From a virus, in IMG/VR virus record IMGVR_UViG_3300030331_004565, positions 1 through 30,079 of that record: a stretch of 30,079 nucleotides of DNA. The stretch is one strand, 5' to 3'. Position 1 is the stretch's first letter. The number at the start of each line of letters is the position of its first letter. The notes beneath the pieces were generated by a model. It searched no databases and had not been told where the DNA came from. It saw only the letters and a program-made list of their open reading frames with translations. This document shows positions 5,774 to 30,079 of this stretch, one piece after another. The position numbers and the translations under genes were made by a program.

Positions 5774-6305
5774 ACAATTAAAAATGGATTTTCAAGTATT
5801 TGATCCTGAAGCAAATGGGTTAGTTCCTTTTGTTGATGAAGTAGAAAGATTTAACACAACATTTAATAAACCAAACAATTATAGTCCTACAATTCCTAAT
5901 GAGAAAGAATGGATGTTTGTATATGATTTTATTCAGGAAGAATTAGCTGAATATAAAGAAGCTTGTGAAAAGGGTGATATAGTAGGAATATTAGATGCAT
6001 TATGTGATATCACTTATGTATCTTTAGGTAATGGTACTATGTTACATGGCTTAAAAAATAAAATATGGCCAGCATATGAAGAAGTACAAGCATCAAATAT
6101 GTCTAAATCATGTGAAACTGAAGAAGAAGCTATAGAAACAGTCTCTATTAGATCTAAGGAACAATTAGAAGATTGTCATTATGAAAAAGTTGGAAATAGA
6201 TACGTTGTATATAGATCCAGAGATAGAAAAGTAATGAAATCAATTAATTATTTTGCACCAAATTTGAAAAAATTTTTTACAAAGGAAGAACTAGATAATG
6301 TATAA
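5766..6305 (+). CDS. MazG-like nucleotide pyrophosphohydrolase
   Basis: This all-alpha NTP pyrophosphatase-fold protein has the magnesium-binding pattern EELAEYKEA (residues 58-66) followed by DALCDITYVSLG (77-88), the EExxE...ExxD arrangement of MazG and PRA-PH relatives. It would split a nucleoside triphosphate to the monophosphate and pyrophosphate. The C-terminal third (about 120-179) is an added charged region I do not recognise. It overlaps the neighbours on both sides by eight bases, so it is co-expressed with the deazaguanine genes and the polymerase. Such enzymes in phages adjust nucleotide pools or alarmone levels; the substrate is unknown. Confidence 0.75.
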   Translation: MNKQLKMDFQVFDPEANGLVPFVDEVERFNTTFNKPNNYSPTIPNEKEWMFVYDFIQEELAEYKEACEKGDIVGILDALCDITYVSLGNGTMLHGLKNKIWPAYEEVQASNMSKSCETEEEAIETVSIRSKEQLEDCHYEKVGNRYVVYRSRDRKVMKSINYFAPNLKKFFTKEELDNV

Positions 6306-8058
6306 AAAATGTTATGCAACAAGGATAGGTGGTTATGATAGTAATCGTTATAAAATTGACTTGTGGGATGAAGATGGTCACCAAGAAATTGAATGGTTAG
6401 ATACAGCTTATGTAGAAGATGATAGTGGTAAATTTATTGGTTTAGAAGGTGAAAAACTATCTAAAACTACAAAATGGAATAAAAGAGATCTTGGACTTCA
6501 TTACCATGATATGAAGGCACATCAAAAATTCCTAATTGAAAAATATGGTATTAATGATACTCCATCAACAGGCCATAGAGAAGTTTATTTTGATATTGAG
6601 TGTGAAATTGGAGGTGCATTAACTAAAGAATATATTGAAAGTGCTCCTATGCCTATTACTTCTATTGCATGGTGGGATAAAAAAGATTGGATTATTCTAA
6701 TTTTAGATAAGAAAAATCTAATAAAAAGTACTACTTGGGATAAACAAAGAAATAAAAAAATAATACCTTGTAGAAGTGAACGTGAACTACTAGCAGAATT
6801 TTTAAAATACCATGTAGATAACTACCCAGATATTTTAATAGGTTATAATAGTGATTTTTTCGATATACCTTATTTATATTATAGAATATGTAATGTATTA
6901 GGTAAGGAATATGCTGAAATGCTATCACCACTACAACAAGTAAAAACTGAAAAATCATCATGGTTTAAACATCCAGAGACTCAAAAATGGATTTCTTATT
7001 GGAGTAAAAGAGATCAGTATGTAGATTTAGTTGGAATTGAACAATTAGATTATCTTCGTTTGCATAAAAAATATAGTTGGAAAGATGAACCAAGCTATAA
7101 ACTAGATGCTATTGGAGAAAAGTATGCTGGTGTTAAAAAAATTGAATATGAAGGTAACTTAGATCAACTATTTGAAACAGACTTACATAAGTTTATTGAA
7201 TATAATTTTCGTGATGTTGAAATACTTAAACTATTAGACGAAAAATTAGATTACATAGCATTAACTAAAAACTTGGCACATAAAGGTAAGCATAATTATG
7301 ATGAAGTCTATTCAAATAGTGTTACTCAAGATGGGGCAATTTCAGCTTACCTATTGTCCCAAAATATTATTCCACCAGCTAGACCTTACCAAGGTAAAAG
7401 ACCATTAGGTAAGGGTGAAACTTATGCTGGTGGTTATTTATTTTGTCCTAAAGCAGGATTATACAATTATATGTTTGATTTAGATTTAGTATCACTGTAT
7501 CCATGTATAATAATGTCACTTAACATAGGTAGAGAAACTTTAGTCGGTTATATTAAAGATGCTAATAAACGTAATAGTAGATTGGCTATTAATGATTTAA
7601 AAGATCGTGATCCTGATGAAGAATTATTAATTGAGAATATTAAAGGACAACAAACACATGTAAATGTTGGTAAATTAATATCTATGATTGAACAAAATCA
7701 ATTATCAGTATCTGCTAATGGAACATTTTTTAGACAAGATAAGGAATCAGTATTATCAACTATTTTAAATAAATGGTTTGATGAAAGAGTAGAGTATAAA
7801 AATAAAATGAAGGAAGCTTATAAAGCTAAAGATAAGGAAAAAGGCGAATATTATTATTTAATGCAATACACAATGAAAATTCTGCTCAATTCATTATATG
7901 GAGCAACAGCATTACCTACTTTTAGATATGGATTACCTAATTTTTTAATTAGTCAAGCTATTACTTTAACAGGACAAAGAATTATTCAAGAAAGTGCATT
8001 ATGTGCTAACACATTTTTAAATAAAGTGTTAAGAGATGAAATAAAACTAGAAATATGA
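6298..8058 (+). CDS. 43A: DNA polymerase family B, N-terminal part (exonuclease, motifs A and B)
   Basis: These 586 residues are the first two thirds of a T4 gp43-like replicative DNA polymerase. Exonuclease motifs are YFDIEC (Exo I, Asp99/Glu101), IGYNSDFFDIPYL (Exo II, 181-193) and YNFRDVEIL (Exo III, 302-310). Polymerase motif A is DLVSLYP (396-402) and motif B is KILLNSLYG (527-535). The protein then stops shortly after the helix that follows motif B, before motif C. The second catalytic aspartates are supplied by the gene at 8667-9647. The two parts sum to 912 residues, close to T4 gp43 at 898, so little or nothing is lost. The stop overlaps the next ATG as ATGA. No intein motif is visible at the break. 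Confidence 0.93.
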   Translation: MYKKCYATRIGGYDSNRYKIDLWDEDGHQEIEWLDTAYVEDDSGKFIGLEGEKLSKTTKWNKRDLGLHYHDMKAHQKFLIEKYGINDTPSTGHREVYFDIECEIGGALTKEYIESAPMPITSIAWWDKKDWIILILDKKNLIKSTTWDKQRNKKIIPCRSERELLAEFLKYHVDNYPDILIGYNSDFFDIPYLYYRICNVLGKEYAEMLSPLQQVKTEKSSWFKHPETQKWISYWSKRDQYVDLVGIEQLDYLRLHKKYSWKDEPSYKLDAIGEKYAGVKKIEYEGNLDQLFETDLHKFIEYNFRDVEILKLLDEKLDYIALTKNLAHKGKHNYDEVYSNSVTQDGAISAYLLSQNIIPPARPYQGKRPLGKGETYAGGYLFCPKAGLYNYMFDLDLVSLYPCIIMSLNIGRETLVGYIKDANKRNSRLAINDLKDRDPDEELLIENIKGQQTHVNVGKLISMIEQNQLSVSANGTFFRQDKESVLSTILNKWFDERVEYKNKMKEAYKAKDKEKGEYYYLMQYTMKILLNSLYGATALPTFRYGLPNFLISQAITLTGQRIIQESALCANTFLNKVLRDEIKLEI

Positions 8059-8270
8059 CATTAAAAAAACAATCAATTAGACAAAATATGGTTATTAAAG
8101 CCAATGGAAAATTAATTGAAAAAGAAGAATTAATAAAATTAAGTGAATCCTGGAATGAATCACAAGAAAATATGTTTAAAAAATGTCTAAAGCAGGGAGT
8201 ATTTAGATTTACAATTAATAAAATAACTTTTCAAATAACACTAACAAATAAATACAATGAAAAAATTTAA
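8055..8270 (+). CDS. Hypothetical protein, 71 aa, inside the split polymerase
   Basis: A small basic protein whose ATG overlaps the stop of the polymerase N-terminal part (ATGA) and whose end overlaps the next gene by 14 bases. The sequence has a central charged helix (KEELIKLSESWNESQENMF) and a C-terminal strand-like segment (FRFTINKITFQITL). It has no LAGLIDADG, GIY-YIG or HNH motif, so it does not look like an intact homing endonuclease. I do not recognise the family. It could be a remnant of an element that split the polymerase, or a small replication partner. Confidence 0.7.
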   Translation: MTLKKQSIRQNMVIKANGKLIEKEELIKLSESWNESQENMFKKCLKQGVFRFTINKITFQITLTNKYNEKI

Positions 8271-8670
8271 AGAACAAACTAATTATAAAGTAGATATATC
8301 TAATGGAGAATTATTGGATAAAATTTCAATTTTAGAATTAAAGTTACTTAAAATTGATAATAAAGAAAAATTAAATAATATTCAAAATGAATTTGATACT
8401 ATTAATCCTTTAGTAGTAGATTTATTTGAAACCTATGGTTCTGATTTACAAATTAAGTATTTAGAACTATCTAAAATTAATGGTCAACTTTGGGATATAG
8501 AAGATGACATAAGAGAATGTGAAAGAAATAAAGATTTTAGTAAAAAATTTGTAGAACTAGCTCGTTCTGTGTATATTACTAATGATGAAAGAAGTAGAGT
8601 TAAAAAAGAAATTAATATGTTAACTAACTCAAATTTAGTAGAAGAAAAATCATACGAAGATTATAAATGA
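8257..8670 (+). CDS. DUF6165 family protein
   Basis: The sequence resembles the DUF6165 family: VDISNGELLDKISILELKL near residues 12-31, LWDIEDDIRECERNKDF at about 79-95, and ELARSVYITNDERSRVKKEIN at about 100-120. It is a mostly helical, charged, 137-residue cytoplasmic protein of unknown function. Relatives are often found next to glycan or polysaccharide genes, which makes its position between the two polymerase halves odd. It overlaps the upstream small gene by 14 bases and the downstream polymerase part by an ATGA. It has no nuclease motif. The family call is from memory of these motifs. Confidence 0.7.
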   Translation: MKKFKEQTNYKVDISNGELLDKISILELKLLKIDNKEKLNNIQNEFDTINPLVVDLFETYGSDLQIKYLELSKINGQLWDIEDDIRECERNKDFSKKFVELARSVYITNDERSRVKKEINMLTNSNLVEEKSYEDYK

Positions 8671-9647
8671 GACATTTAGAAGATACTCCTTGGTGGATTT
8701 GTAATAAAAATGATGTGAATTTATGTGCTTATGTTGACACAGATTCAAATTATTTTCATGGGGGTCCTGTACTAAAACATTTATATCCTGATTTTGAAGA
8801 AAGATTTAATGATATTGAAAAAGATAATATAACTGAAAAATTAGCTGAAATAACAGAAGAAGTAATTAATGAAGATTATAAAAGATTAGTTACTGAAAGT
8901 TTTGGAGTTATTGGGAAGAATAGGTTAAAAATGAAAACTGAATGTGTTATTAGAGCAGCTTATTTTAGAGCAACAAGACGTTACGCTCAATGGATAACAA
9001 AAACAGAGGGTATAACAAAAGAAACTTTAGATATTAAAGGTTTAGAGTTTATGAAAGCAAATTTTCCTCCCATTTTAGGAGAATTTTTTAATGATATTTT
9101 ACAACAAACATTAAAAGGTGTTAAAGAAGAAAGTATTACTAATCAAATAAAATTATTTAAAGAAAAAATATTAAATGGAGATATTCCTTTAACCCAACTA
9201 GGAAACCCAACCATGATTAAAAAATTAAATAAATATAAAGGACATAAGGCGGCTGGTGAAATATTTACCGAAATATTAAGGCCTTTAAGTGCTAAAAAAG
9301 AAGGAAAAACACAAAGAAATTTAGGAGCACCCGCACCTGTTAGAGCTGCAATTAGGTACAATGATTTATTAACTTTATGGCAATTAGATAAAAAATATAA
9401 TTTAATGACTCAGGCTGATAAGGTAAAATGGATTTATTTAAAAGATAATCCATATAAAATTGAAGCACTAGCTTTTTTTGATTATGAAATGCCTCCTAAA
9501 ATAAAACAATTTTTAGAACAATATGCAGATAGACAAAAAGTATTTGATTCTATTTTATTAAATAAATTAGAAGGGTTTTTTAATGATCTAGAATGGGATT
9601 TATCTTTAAATCCCTATGTAAATGCATTGAGTTCTTTTGAAGTATAA
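8667..9647 (+). CDS. 43B: DNA polymerase family B, C-terminal part (motif C and thumb)
   Basis: This 326-residue protein starts just before motif C, AYVDTDSNYF (residues 21-30), which holds the palm aspartates missing from the 6298-8058 protein. A KNRLKMKTE segment and an ARYxx-like RATRRYAQWI stretch (about 90-113) match the region after motif C in T4-type polymerases, and the remainder is the thumb. Alone it has no exonuclease, motif A or motif B, so it must join the N-terminal part to be active. Its start is an ATGA overlap with the DUF6165 gene, which would favour balanced translation of the two halves. Confidence 0.92.
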   Translation: MRHLEDTPWWICNKNDVNLCAYVDTDSNYFHGGPVLKHLYPDFEERFNDIEKDNITEKLAEITEEVINEDYKRLVTESFGVIGKNRLKMKTECVIRAAYFRATRRYAQWITKTEGITKETLDIKGLEFMKANFPPILGEFFNDILQQTLKGVKEESITNQIKLFKEKILNGDIPLTQLGNPTMIKKLNKYKGHKAAGEIFTEILRPLSAKKEGKTQRNLGAPAPVRAAIRYNDLLTLWQLDKKYNLMTQADKVKWIYLKDNPYKIEALAFFDYEMPPKIKQFLEQYADRQKVFDSILLNKLEGFFNDLEWDLSLNPYVNALSSFEV

Positions 9648-9666
9648 AATAAATTTCGTATATTAT
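9636..9666 (+). promoter_or_regulatory. Promoter before the sliding clamp gene
   Basis: TTTG at 9636-9639, a 19-base spacer and TATATTAT at 9659-9666, preceded by the recurring TTTCG, fit the Bacteroidota pattern. The TTTG lies in the last codons of the polymerase C-terminal part. The clamp ATG at 9672 is only five bases after the -7 element, so a transcript from here would be leaderless or nearly so. Confidence 0.5.
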
Positions 9667-10400: not shown

Positions 10401-10770
10401 AAAACCAGACCAATTTGCAGAAAATAAAGCTATTATGCCTTATGGTGATAATGTAGGGGCACCTTCAATTCATCCTACAAATATTACTGCCTATAAGCAG
10501 GAAAAAGTAATTAAAACTAATCATTATTTTGAGGCTAGATTTAATGAAATAAAAGATGAATATAAAAAACTTATAGAAGCCTATAAATGGAATGAATTAG
10601 TTTATGATAGTGAATTTAGATTTGAACCTATTAAGGGAAATATCTATCATTTATATCAAAAACAAGATGAAACTTTATTTTTATCACTAATAGCACCTGA
10701 TGAATGGGATCAAATTTTTATTGGATCATTTAGAATGGATTCAGATGATAAATGGACAAAAGTAAATTAA
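10393..10770 (+). CDS. DUF2452 family protein
   Basis: The 125-residue protein matches the DUF2452 pattern: MPYGDNVGAPSIHPTNITAY at about residues 15-34, a helical middle, and FEPIKGNIYHLYQK followed by LSLIAPDEW in the second half. The function of the family is unknown. Relatives are frequent in Bacteroidota and other aquatic bacteria, so its presence supports that host group. It overlaps the clamp gene by eight bases and is the last gene before a 131-base leader region, so it likely shares the clamp transcript. It has no membrane segment or signal peptide. Confidence 0.75.
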   Translation: MSKKPDQFAENKAIMPYGDNVGAPSIHPTNITAYKQEKVIKTNHYFEARFNEIKDEYKKLIEAYKWNELVYDSEFRFEPIKGNIYHLYQKQDETLFLSLIAPDEWDQIFIGSFRMDSDDKWTKVN

Positions 10771-10776
10771 AAATAA

Positions 10777-10808
10777 TTTGGAAGAGTGACTTTTCTTTCT
10801 TATTATAT
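10777..10808 (+). promoter_or_regulatory. Promoter of hsp20
   Basis: TTTG at 10777-10780, a 20-base spacer and TATTATAT at 10801-10808 fit the Bacteroidota -33/-7 arrangement. An alternative -7, TATATATG, overlaps at 10804-10811. The site is in the 131-base gap after the DUF2452 gene. Transcription from here would give an hsp20 leader of about 90 bases. Confidence 0.5.
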
Positions 10809-10811
10809 ATG

Positions 10812-10901
10812 TATAATAAAATAACATTGTAGCTAGGGCACAAGTTATATTTTTAAAATAAATAATTAACCGAGAGCTTCGGCCTCACAAAACAAAATGA
10901 T
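10812..10901 (+). promoter_or_regulatory. Long structured 5' leader of hsp20
   Basis: This roughly 90-base leader holds two notable elements. One is GCTAGGGCAC at 10832-10841, the exact reverse complement of the hsp20 terminator stem-loop region. The other is a small GC-rich hairpin, CCGA at 10870-10873 pairing with TCGG at 10879-10882, about 20 bases before the start codon. A two-codon frame (ATG ATA TGA, 10897-10905) overlaps the real ATG at 10902. Leaders of small heat-shock genes are known sites of RNA thermometers, but no ROSE or fourU element is certain here. Confidence 0.4.
10832..10841 (+). repeat. Inverted-repeat arm in the hsp20 leader
   Basis: GCTAGGGCAC here is the perfect reverse complement of GTGCCCTAGC at 11343-11352. 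Seven of ten bases are G or C in a very AT-rich region, and the two arms flank exactly the hsp20 gene. Confidence 0.6.
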
Positions 10902-11324
10902 ATGAGTACATTAGAACTATTTGAAGGGCATTTAAGTCCTTTCGACATCCTTTTTAGGAATCACTTTAAATCTGACAGCACATTTCAACCTGTTGGAAAT
11001 TTCAAACAACCACACCCACTTAATATTTTTTATGATGATACAGGACTTAATTTTGAAGTCGCCTGTACTGGTCTAACTAAAAAAGACATAGTATTAGATA
11101 TTGAAGGGGATACTTTAAAAATAAGTTACAATAAACCAGATAAAGAAGAACTCCACCCAGGAATGATTCATAATGGTTTATCTAAAAAATCATTTGATTT
11201 AAGGTATAAAATAGCACCTAAATTCGATTTAAATAAAGTAAAGGCTACATTAGTAAATGGTTTATTAGAAATTTTTATTCCATTAGCTGAAGAAGCTAAA
11301 CCAAAATCAATTAAAATTAATTAA
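10902..11324 (+). CDS. hsp20: Small heat-shock protein, Hsp20 family
   Basis: A 140-residue ATP-independent chaperone that binds unfolding proteins in the cytoplasm. The alpha-crystallin domain spans about residues 45-132: it opens with LNFEVACTGLTKKDIVLDIEGDTL and ends with the family signature VNGLLEIFIPL. A C-terminal IKI motif (IxI type), used for oligomer contacts, sits at the very end. T4-like cyanophages and other marine T4-type phages also carry Hsp20. It is a single-gene transcript, with its own promoter, a long leader and a terminator, and it stands directly before the GroES/GroEL operon. Confidence 0.93.
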   Translation: MSTLELFEGHLSPFDILFRNHFKSDSTFQPVGNFKQPHPLNIFYDDTGLNFEVACTGLTKKDIVLDIEGDTLKISYNKPDKEELHPGMIHNGLSKKSFDLRYKIAPKFDLNKVKATLVNGLLEIFIPLAEEAKPKSIKIN

Positions 11325-11334
11325 TAATAATTCC

Positions 11335-11363
11335 AAAAAAACGTGCCCTAGCCATGTTTTTTT
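11335..11363 (+). terminator. Rho-independent terminator of hsp20
   Basis: Bases 11335-11345 pair with 11353-11363 in an eleven-base-pair stem (seven A-T pairs at the base, then CGTG with CATG, one G-T wobble) around the loop CCCTAGC, with the T-run forming the descending arm. It begins ten bases after the hsp20 stop codon. The loop is complementary to GCTAGGG in the hsp20 leader. Confidence 0.75.
11343..11352 (+). repeat. Inverted-repeat arm in the hsp20 terminator
   Basis: GTGCCCTAGC covers the top of the ascending stem and the whole loop of the hsp20 terminator. It is the exact reverse complement of 10832-10841. Confidence 0.6.
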
Positions 11364-11365
11364 TG

Positions 11366-11373
11366 TATATTAT
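11366..11373 (+). promoter_or_regulatory. Possible -7 element before the GroES/GroEL operon
   Basis: TATATTAT directly follows the terminator T-run (TTTTG), 23 bases before the ATG at 11396. It is identical to the -7 at 9659-9666, but no TTTG is present at the right distance upstream (CGTG at 20 bases). It is a weak candidate on its own. Confidence 0.3.
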
Positions 11374-11395
11374 CGTCAAATTAATAAATAGTTAT

Positions 11396-11701
11396 ATGGC
11401 AAGAAAACCTAAATCCTTAACACTTATTGAAGATCCAAATTTAGATCCATATTACATTACTAAAGATGAAAACTGTTATACAGTTAATATTAGAGTAGTG
11501 TCAGATAAGAATCATTTTAGATCTACAGGTAAAAGTAAAACTTATTCTAAAGCACTTACTTTCCATGCTAATTTTGAAAGAGCATTAGAAAGAATAAGTC
11601 AAGAAAAGTTACATACTAAAGAACATTATAAAAATCTAAATGATTTTTTAAATGAATATAAAAAAATTGAAAATAATATTAAAAATTATATAGAAAAATG
11701 A
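11396..11701 (+). CDS. Hypothetical protein, 101 aa, first gene of the chaperonin operon
   Basis: I place the start at the ATG at 11396 (MARKPKSLTL). An in-frame ATG at 11354 lies inside the hsp20 terminator and would add a spurious hydrophobic stretch. The product is basic and polar: a strand-rich first half (YTVNIRVVSDKNHFRSTGKS at about 27-46) and a helical, Lys/Glu-rich second half. It may bind nucleic acid, but no known motif is visible. Its stop overlaps the GroES start (ATGA), so it is translationally linked to the chaperonin genes. Confidence 0.75.
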   Translation: MARKPKSLTLIEDPNLDPYYITKDENCYTVNIRVVSDKNHFRSTGKSKTYSKALTFHANFERALERISQEKLHTKEHYKNLNDFLNEYKKIENNIKNYIEK

Positions 11702-15117: not shown

Positions 15118-15366
15118 ATGGCAAAAAAACCACAACAACCGCAATTAAATGTTGATTTAAAAGCGACAACAGCAATACTTAACTCAGAAGGAAAAAATGT
15201 ATTCTTATCTGGAGTTATTTTAAGAAAAATCTCAAAATTTGTAGCAGGTACAGACGATGATGCTATAATGCCTCTTCCAGTATTTTATGATCCATCTACA
15301 GGTAAAATTTTAAAAGAAGGATTACCAAAAGAATTAAGAGAGGAATTAAAAGACGAGTGTTTATAG
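15118..15366 (+). CDS. Hypothetical protein, 82 aa
   Basis: A small soluble protein placed one base after the clamp loader large subunit and one base before the small subunit. The N-terminus is Lys/Pro/Gln-rich (residues 1-12), the middle has alternating hydrophobic residues (NVFLSGVILRKISKFV at about 27-42), and a loop with PVFYDPSTGKI precedes a charged C-terminal helix. No family is recognised. Its tight position between two clamp-loader genes suggests a replication-linked role, but nothing in the sequence shows one. Confidence 0.75.
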   Translation: MAKKPQQPQLNVDLKATTAILNSEGKNVFLSGVILRKISKFVAGTDDDAIMPLPVFYDPSTGKILKEGLPKELREELKDECL

Positions 15367-16403: not shown

Positions 16404-17297
16404 TTGGCTAAAAAAATACCTAATATAGTTAAGGAGATTAGGAATAATCCTCCTCACGAGATAGATTATTCATATCAAAAAAATATATCATACTCCCAAA
16501 TATCTATGTTTAAGCAATGTCCTCATAGATGGAAATTGCATTATAAAGATAAAATTAGTCAAAGGGATACCTCTATTTATTTAGTATTTGGAATAGCTAT
16601 ACATGAGGTTATTCAGGAATATTTAACTGTTTACTATGAAAAATCAAAAGTAAAAGCAAATGAAATTAATTTAGAAGAAAAATTCCAAGAAACATTTATT
16701 GAAGCCTACCAAAAACAGTATAAACAAAATAATAATTCACATTTTTCAAGTGCTGAAGAAATGAGGGAGTTTTTTGAAGATGGGGTTGAAATATTAAAGT
16801 TCTTTAAGAAAAAAGTAAGTGGATATTTTTCAAAACGAGGTACTTACCTAGTAGGTATTGAACTACCAGTTATTAATGTACCAAATAGAATGTATAATAA
16901 TATTTTATTTAAAGGTATGTTAGATATCGTTTTATATAATGAAACATTAGATGAATTTACTATAATAGATATTAAAACTAGTACTAGAGGATGGCATGAT
17001 AAAATGAAAAAAAATGAGGATAAACAATTTCAACTTATTCTTTACAAACAATATTTTTCAGAATTATATGATATTCCCCTAGATAAAATAGATATTAAAT
17101 TTTTTATAGTTAAAAGAAAATTATATGAAAATTGTGACTGGGTACAAACAAGAATACAAGAATTTAGTCCCCCTAGTGGTAAAATTAAATTAGGTAGAGC
17201 TAATAAATATGTGAATGATTTTATGGCACAAGTATTTGATTCTAAAGGTAATATTAAGGAACAAAATTACCCTTGTACCTGTAAATATTGTGAATAA
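16404..17297 (+). CDS. PD-(D/E)XK nuclease, Cas4/RecB-like with probable Fe-S cluster
   Basis: A 297-residue nuclease of the PDDEXK_1 group. Motifs: SYSQISMFKQCPHRWKLHY (29-47), GIAIHEVIQEYL (63-74), the metal-binding MLDIVL (172-177, Asp174) and IIDIKTS (187-193, Asp189, Lys191), and a QxxxY helix (Gln210, Tyr214). Cys39 plus the C-terminal CTCKYC cysteines (291, 293, 296) form the one-plus-three pattern that binds a 4Fe-4S cluster in Cas4 and AddB, here with tighter spacing. It probably cuts or resects DNA in recombination or host-DNA breakdown. The start is TTG at 16404, since an in-frame stop lies six bases upstream and the next ATG (residue 35) would cut into the first motif. Confidence 0.85.
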   Translation: MAKKIPNIVKEIRNNPPHEIDYSYQKNISYSQISMFKQCPHRWKLHYKDKISQRDTSIYLVFGIAIHEVIQEYLTVYYEKSKVKANEINLEEKFQETFIEAYQKQYKQNNNSHFSSAEEMREFFEDGVEILKFFKKKVSGYFSKRGTYLVGIELPVINVPNRMYNNILFKGMLDIVLYNETLDEFTIIDIKTSTRGWHDKMKKNEDKQFQLILYKQYFSELYDIPLDKIDIKFFIVKRKLYENCDWVQTRIQEFSPPSGKIKLGRANKYVNDFMAQVFDSKGNIKEQNYPCTCKYCE

Positions 17298-29872: not shown

Positions 29873-30079
29873 ATGAGAAAGTTAGAAAGTATAGATAAAT
29901 TATTATTGTTTGCATTAGTGTTATTTACCTTTATGTTGTTTAATTCAGTAAATGCTCAAACAAAAATAGGTATGGACACACCAAATGAAAACATTTATGG
30001 TGAGTGGGTTAGTTATGATGGTGAACACCAATTATTTTTAAATTACACTGATAGAGGTGATACATTTTATAGAAAATCA
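29873..30079 (+). CDS. Secreted or lipid-free exported protein, N-terminal part (runs off the window)
   Basis: Only the first 69 residues are present. A basic start (MRKLESIDK) is followed by a hydrophobic stretch (LLLFALVLFTFMLFNS, about 10-25) and a likely cleavage site after VNA with Gln next (NAQT, about 27-30). This Ala-Gln junction is very typical of Bacteroidota signal peptides. There is no lipobox Cys. The mature part begins polar with GEWVSYDGEHQLFLNYTDRGDTFY, consistent with a strand-rich periplasmic or surface protein. The function cannot be told from the fragment. Confidence 0.72.
   Translation, partial: MRKLESIDKLLLFALVLFTFMLFNSVNAQTKIGMDTPNENIYGEWVSYDGEHQLFLNYTDRGDTFYRKS

Follow-up and report, generated by a model that had tools for sequence, protein, structure and literature searches.

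The genes for rRNA lie between inverted arms; in the transcript these pair into a long stem, which is the place of processing by RNase III. In the hbs message of B. subtilis, an intramolecular pairing of 14 nt between the 5'UTR and the 3'UTR protects the message from cleavage by RNase Y in the 5'UTR (Braun et al. 2017, in the account given in PMC7821165). In S. aureus, the 5'-3'UTR pairing of icaR extends over the Shine-Dalgarno region; it blocks translation and creates a site for RNase III, and the motif is reported to be absent from S. epidermidis (PMC3868564). The RNAIII (hld) of S. aureus contains a long-range 5'-3' pairing of 7 nt, the role of which in translation is unproven (PMC7821165).

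We analyzed the DNA of the IMG/VR record IMGVR_UViG_3300030331_004565, a 30-kb virus record, from position 1 to position 30,079. This whole stretch of 30,079 nt is referred to as the window. In it, the gene for a small heat-shock protein (hsp20) is flanked by two complementary arms, which are predicted to form a helix in the message. As far as the account of hbs goes, hbs is the closest in its working to the phage hsp20 helix; that is, its 5'UTR pairs with the 3'UTR of the same message. The two differ in that hbs is a host gene, and in that protection was measured for hbs and is proposed for the phage hsp20; we claim no sequence relation between them. The covariation over many lineages, in contrast, is a feature of the phage hsp20 helix. 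The helix of icaR lies at the Shine-Dalgarno sequence, whereas that of the phage hsp20 lies 60-74 nt from the AUG; furthermore, the icaR motif is reported to be absent from S. epidermidis, whereas the phage pairing is retained while its sequence changes. RNAIII resembles the phage element in that its 5' region pairs near the 3' end, but it is a regulatory RNA and its pairing comprises 7 nt. Compared with the stems of rRNA, the phage hsp20 transcript is an mRNA of about 500 nt with a shorter helix and a promoter-like motif of its own.

The search of Rfam gave no match in the window at the gathering thresholds, and region 10700-11450 gave just sub-threshold, chance-level matches. No comparable phage element was found in the open-access papers, subscription papers and preprints being outside the scope of this search. 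Pairing of a 5'UTR with a 3'UTR is already known as a kind; what appears to be new is a phage family in which the arms re-evolve.

The hsp20 locus and its complementary arms

The window encodes hsp20 (PF00011), groES (PF00166) and groEL (PF00118), together with a DNA polymerase that is apparently split, a putative sliding clamp, and a T4-type clamp loader whose best cultured matches were the clamp loaders of large phages (38-39% identity). The DNA polymerase apparently occupies two ORFs (6298-8058 and 8667-9647), with the small ORFs 8055-8270 and 8257-8670 between the halves and a YVDTDS motif just after the start of the second half. The nearest cultured-phage match of the groEL DNA was Flavobacterium phage immuto, and one relative, L269, had been placed in the bin of a Flavobacteriaceae MAG. 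The host may plausibly be a marine member of the Bacteroidota. The features of the hsp20 locus are as follows.

10809-10818, + strand: promoter-like -10 sequence ATGTATAATA (consensus match), immediately ahead of the 5' helix strand
10823-10841, + strand: 5' strand of the long-range helix, with the core GCTAGGGCAC at 10832-10841
10823-10850, + strand: weak local leader hairpin (-6.6 kcal/mol), whose loop contains the core or lies close to it; an alternative state
10872-10886, + strand: second conserved leader hairpin, GAG-A(bulge)-GC-UUCG-GC-CUC; three of five pairs change on both sides, and all cells are paired
10902-11324, + strand: hsp20, small heat-shock protein of 140 aa (Pfam PF00011, E 1.4e-12)
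11335-11364, + strand: terminator-like hairpin with U-tract (about -7 kcal/mol)
11343-11358, + strand: 3' strand of the long-range helix, with the core GTGCCCTAGC at 11343-11352
11362-11371, + strand: promoter-like motif TTTGTATATT (consensus match) ahead of the next gene; the form in relatives is TTCGTATATT

A preliminary description of this DNA had claimed that GCTAGGGCAC at 10832-10841 is the exact reverse complement of GTGCCCTAGC at 11343-11352, and that the second copy forms the top of the stem and the loop of the hsp20 terminator hairpin. Both coordinates are right, and the hairpin has the form A7-CGTG-CCCTAGC-CATG-T8 (11335-11364). In the window, GCTAGGGCAC occurs at 10832-10841 on the + strand and at 11343-11352 on the - strand and nowhere else; the number of matches to the 10-mer expected from window shuffles was 0.01. 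The predicted helix exceeds these ten bases, joining 10823-10841 with 11343-11358 by 16 pairs with small bulges. The fold of 10820-11370 joined both arms (z -2.6). The terminator hairpin and the long-range helix use the same bases in the window and are mutually exclusive.

When 46 ORFs of the window were tested alike for complementarity of their 5' and 3' flanks, hsp20 ranked first. The runner-up was ORF 8257-8670, which has conserved coding sequence in both flanks. The strong matches of this ORF and of ORF 15118-15366 were dropped because they are situated in conserved protein-coding sequence. A generic search for inverted repeats in the window gave 953 pairs, which were AT-rich and uninformative.

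The motif TTCGTATATT occurs in five copies on the + strand of the window and in none on the - strand, and is likely to be a phage promoter motif. Its positions are 58, 9655, 11362 (one mismatch), 22872, 27496 and 27706, several of which lie shortly before genes. Since the copy at 9655 ends 7 nt before the ATG of the clamp gene, a leaderless mRNA is possible there.

Compensatory change in the two arms

IMG/VR was scanned for relatives four times at the protein level and once by pattern, which gave the closest relatives among the matches listed; every relative is a metagenomic assembly, and they come from a large, uncultured family of marine phages. At least 90 distinct intact pairs of hsp20 5'UTR and 3'UTR were obtained among these matches. 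Where a locus had been picked up solely through the pattern of the leader arm, hsp20 was confirmed in all cases except L214 and L219, both of which are cut near the match, and no intact arm-pattern locus without hsp20 was found among the loci listed. The commonest gene order was clamp, hsp20, orf115, groES and groEL.

The spacing of the elements was largely retained among the 90 relatives in the matches listed. The distance from the end of a GTATAA-like motif to the leader core was 11-23 nt in 86 of them and mostly 14-16 nt, which would place the transcription start at about the first base of the helix. A GTATATT motif followed the 3' core in 88 of the 90, with a spacing of 12 nt in 80.

A contiguous helix of 8-24 bp was present in 90 of 90 distinct relatives among the matches listed, but the sequences of its arms differed. 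The commonest core was GCTAGGGCAC with GTGTCCTAGC, in which a G.U pair takes the place of the G-C pair of the window. The other cores were GCTAGAGCAC with GTGCTCTAGC (L041 and L187), GTTAGGACAC with GTGTCCTAGC (L181), AAGGCGCGCT with AGCGCGCCTT (L034, L042 and L043), AGGGCGC with GCGCCCT (L050, L053, L064 and L072), and CCCTAGAG with CTCTAGGG (L170). In the hsp20 tree, which has 140 columns and many weak forks, the replaced arm types were nested among the common type (type A); L030 was sister to L023 and L170 to L078, and L041 and L187 were placed apart. This nesting indicates about seven joint changes of the two arms. The preliminary description had named a change in one arm without its partner as evidence against pairing; what we found on the tree, at these roughly seven places, were matched changes.

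In an alignment of 46 sequences, 96.5% of the cells were paired, and two-sided changes were seen at six of the ten core pairs (20 cells). The covariation score was 0.226, compared with 0.117 after shuffling, and none of 500 shuffles matched any of five measures. When the register was slid by one to three columns in either direction (-3 to +3), pairing dropped to 21-49%, every slide being far lower. Because the relatedness of the sequences inflates such alignment-based covariation results, we added a test free of alignment. In addition, the most divergent 3'UTR types had been placed in register by hand, which favours pairing, and we therefore took the comparison of own and swapped duplex energies as the main test.

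In this test, the duplex energies of eight divergent arm types with their own partners summed to -262.7 kcal/mol, and this own pairing was the unique best among the 40,320 possible assignments of leaders to 3'UTRs. For 12 distinct cores, 113 of 120 cells were paired, whereas 20,000 arm swaps reached at most 112. As a control, the other ORFs of these loci, 732 in all, were scored: the lowest score of hsp20, 22, was reached by 23 of them (3%), and 24.5 by seven. Furthermore, in folds of 27 whole transcripts, the pairing probability of the core was 0.90-1.00 in all 27, and the duplex (-22.8 to -36.3 kcal/mol) was stronger in each of them than the summed local hairpins (-4.9 to -21.5 kcal/mol). 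Taken comprehensively, this comparison of relatives shows that the helix exists and is maintained by compensatory change. The view that the match is unlikely by chance is thus borne out, both by the expectation of 0.01 and by conservation with compensatory change in 90 distinct relatives among the matches listed.

The local leader hairpin varied from -13.1 to -1.6 kcal/mol among relatives, meaning that its strength is not conserved. A model in which the leader loop kisses the terminator loop was set aside, because the local hairpins are not conserved and the duplex is. The local hairpins may serve as first contacts, and kissing loops are possible in type A. The second leader hairpin (10872-10886) keeps an invariant bulged A two pairs below its tetraloop and about 16 nt before the hsp20 AUG, while its loops interchange among UUCG, UUAG, UAAG and GAAA in relatives. 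We take its geometry to resemble that of the protein-binding operator hairpins of RNA phages.

Genomic contexts of the hsp20 unit

The helix was kept with hsp20 in three genomic contexts. Besides the common gene order, L030 and L170 carry hsp20-groES-groEL without orf115, and their groEL is 60-61% identical to that of the window. They apparently belong to a different phage group; by eye, a DNA polymerase gene in the vicinity looks family-A-like. Their hsp20 is 73-85% identical to that of the window and their groES 40-43%, which suggests that phage groups have exchanged the hsp20 unit. In L177, hsp20 stands alone between other genes, and the next gene resembles the window ORF 16404-17297 and not groES. 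Since the helix is present in all of these contexts, it belongs to the hsp20 unit and not to the chaperonin operon.

The hsp20 protein of L209 is only 46% identical to that of the window, yet its arms are of the common type. The hsp20 genes of L209, L232 and L241 form a very distant branch, while the common type is seen in their UTR arms and neighbours; this suggests a coding region that was replaced, or that evolves fast, inside a retained RNA frame. In L080 and L158 there is an apparent partial tandem copy of hsp20 and its leader, with a second leader hairpin and an ATG after an early stop, which could be a duplication or an assembly artefact.

The hsp20 genes of two cultured phages, Pelagibacter HTVC115P and Pseudomonas Y7, had no comparable 5'/3' match (scores of 16.5 and 16 against a background mean of 15.9). 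As these scores are close to background, phage hsp20 genes do not carry the feature in general. The cultured Immutovirus has groES and groEL, and no recognisable relative of the window hsp20 was found in it.

Possible functions of the helix

We think that the two arms form a conserved 5'-3' panhandle which closes a monocistronic hsp20 mRNA and governs its decay in the manner of hbs. We put the probability of this reading, which is drawn from sequence and analogy, at about 0.55. That both arms lie on the same transcript is inferred with the support of the promoter-like motif 5' of the 5' arm. The start of transcription would coincide with the 5' strand or slightly precede it, and its end would follow closely on the 3' strand, so that both ends of the mRNA would be held in the duplex. 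The 5' core starts 60-74 nt ahead of the ATG in all relatives among the matches listed, and the 3' core pattern lies 7-21 nt beyond the stop codon; translating ribosomes therefore need not disrupt the helix. Pairing of the 3' motif with the ribosome binding site, as in icaR, was not found in the relatives listed, the 5' core being at the above distance in all of them. The helix would thus seal the ends of a one-gene message while leaving the ribosome start site untouched, and would shield the 5' end and the 5'UTR from decay nucleases. The outcome would be a long-lived and highly translated chaperone message. Among the effects considered in the preliminary description, message stability is the function that we prefer.

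More tentatively, we speculate that this is a phage-specific, self-closing mRNA, in which a near-blunt panhandle hides both ends. Such a unit would be carried between unrelated phages with re-evolved arms, and its message would outlive the decay of bulk mRNA during infection. In the extreme case, an RNA ligase could join the ends into a circular mRNA.

The main rival, which we consider rather unlikely, is that the helix is a processing stalk cut on both strands by RNase III, either excising hsp20 from longer transcripts or starting its decay. The icaR 5'/3'UTR duplex is a substrate of RNase III (PMC3868564), and several lineages have a long helix (24 contiguous bp in L177; 21 contiguous bp in L030, plus 7 bp beyond a small internal loop). 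In most lineages, however, it comprises just 10-13 contiguous pairs with bulges adjoining. In addition, excision seems unnecessary for hsp20, a gene with a promoter-like motif of its own upstream. By analogy with hbs, stabilisation seems to be the better reading than processing by RNase III.

Control of read-through is less probable still. In this explanation, pairing of the leader would pre-empt the terminator hairpin, and the polymerase would continue into groES/groEL. The mutual exclusion of the two structures in the window fits this explanation, as does the presence of groES/groEL downstream in most relatives. The window copy is itself terminator-like, but an intrinsic terminator or attenuator was not conserved in relatives: a U-tract followed the 3' hairpin in just 38 of the 90 among the matches listed, and the local 3' hairpin ranged from -0.4 to -10.3 kcal/mol across the folded relatives. 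It was as weak as -0.4 (L177), -1.2 (L170) and -1.8 kcal/mol (L030) in three that all keep long helices. Because neither U-tract nor local hairpin is kept throughout and the duplex is always stronger, the conserved object is the long-range helix. A promoter-like motif directly 3' of the 3' arm also speaks against read-through, and since hsp20 of L177 does not adjoin groES/groEL, control of read-through is not the general function. Thus, of the leader-terminator pairing proposed in the preliminary description, the pairing of the arms as RNA in the hsp20 message stands by covariation, whereas an effect on termination or read-through into groES/groEL does not stand as the general function.

It is very improbable that the arms act as DNA, either by ending a mobile or invertible hsp20 cassette as its terminal repeats or by serving as paired sites of a DNA-binding protein. 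They do tightly flank one gene that is found in three contexts, and a DNA-binding protein that changes could in principle carry both sites with it. However, column 14 of the alignment holds G.U, a mismatch in DNA, in 29 of 46 sequences; its states were GU, GC and AU, and A.C never occurred. Among the 12 distinct cores, G.U was seen seven times and A.C three times, with four other mismatches; the count is small, and this excess of G.U, in the direction expected for sense RNA, is not decisive alone. Furthermore, hsp20 was co-oriented with its neighbours wherever both were found (264-270 loci for groES, orf115 and groEL, and 231 for the clamp, the loci being partly redundant), and no inverted hsp20 was seen among those loci. 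No transposase or recombinase was recognised beside hsp20 when the gene neighbourhoods were judged by eye, and the remaining leader carries the second covarying RNA hairpin. We rejected the invertible cassette because hsp20 has a single orientation and the arm sequences themselves diverge. The cassette and the protein-binding site suggested in the preliminary description fit poorly with the G.U pair in the commonest core, with arms that diverge fully and stay complementary, and with the constant orientation.

Heat-shock genes often carry RNA thermometers, and the invariant bulged A in a conserved hairpin about 16 nt before the AUG could fit translational control in which the closed form sets the start region and responds to temperature or to a protein at that hairpin, but this is the least probable explanation, as the A-rich stretch before the AUG is covered by neither helix and the long helix is 60-74 nt from the AUG and predicted to be very stable.

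So far, pairing between 5'UTR and 3'UTR has been described for a few host messages of bacteria. In the present case, natural variation in a DNA phage amounts to a compensatory-mutation experiment that was already repeated many times around a single chaperone gene. The natural arm variants are a ready set for testing how closure of an mRNA loop affects its decay. Our findings suggest that some phages protect selected messages through RNA structure.
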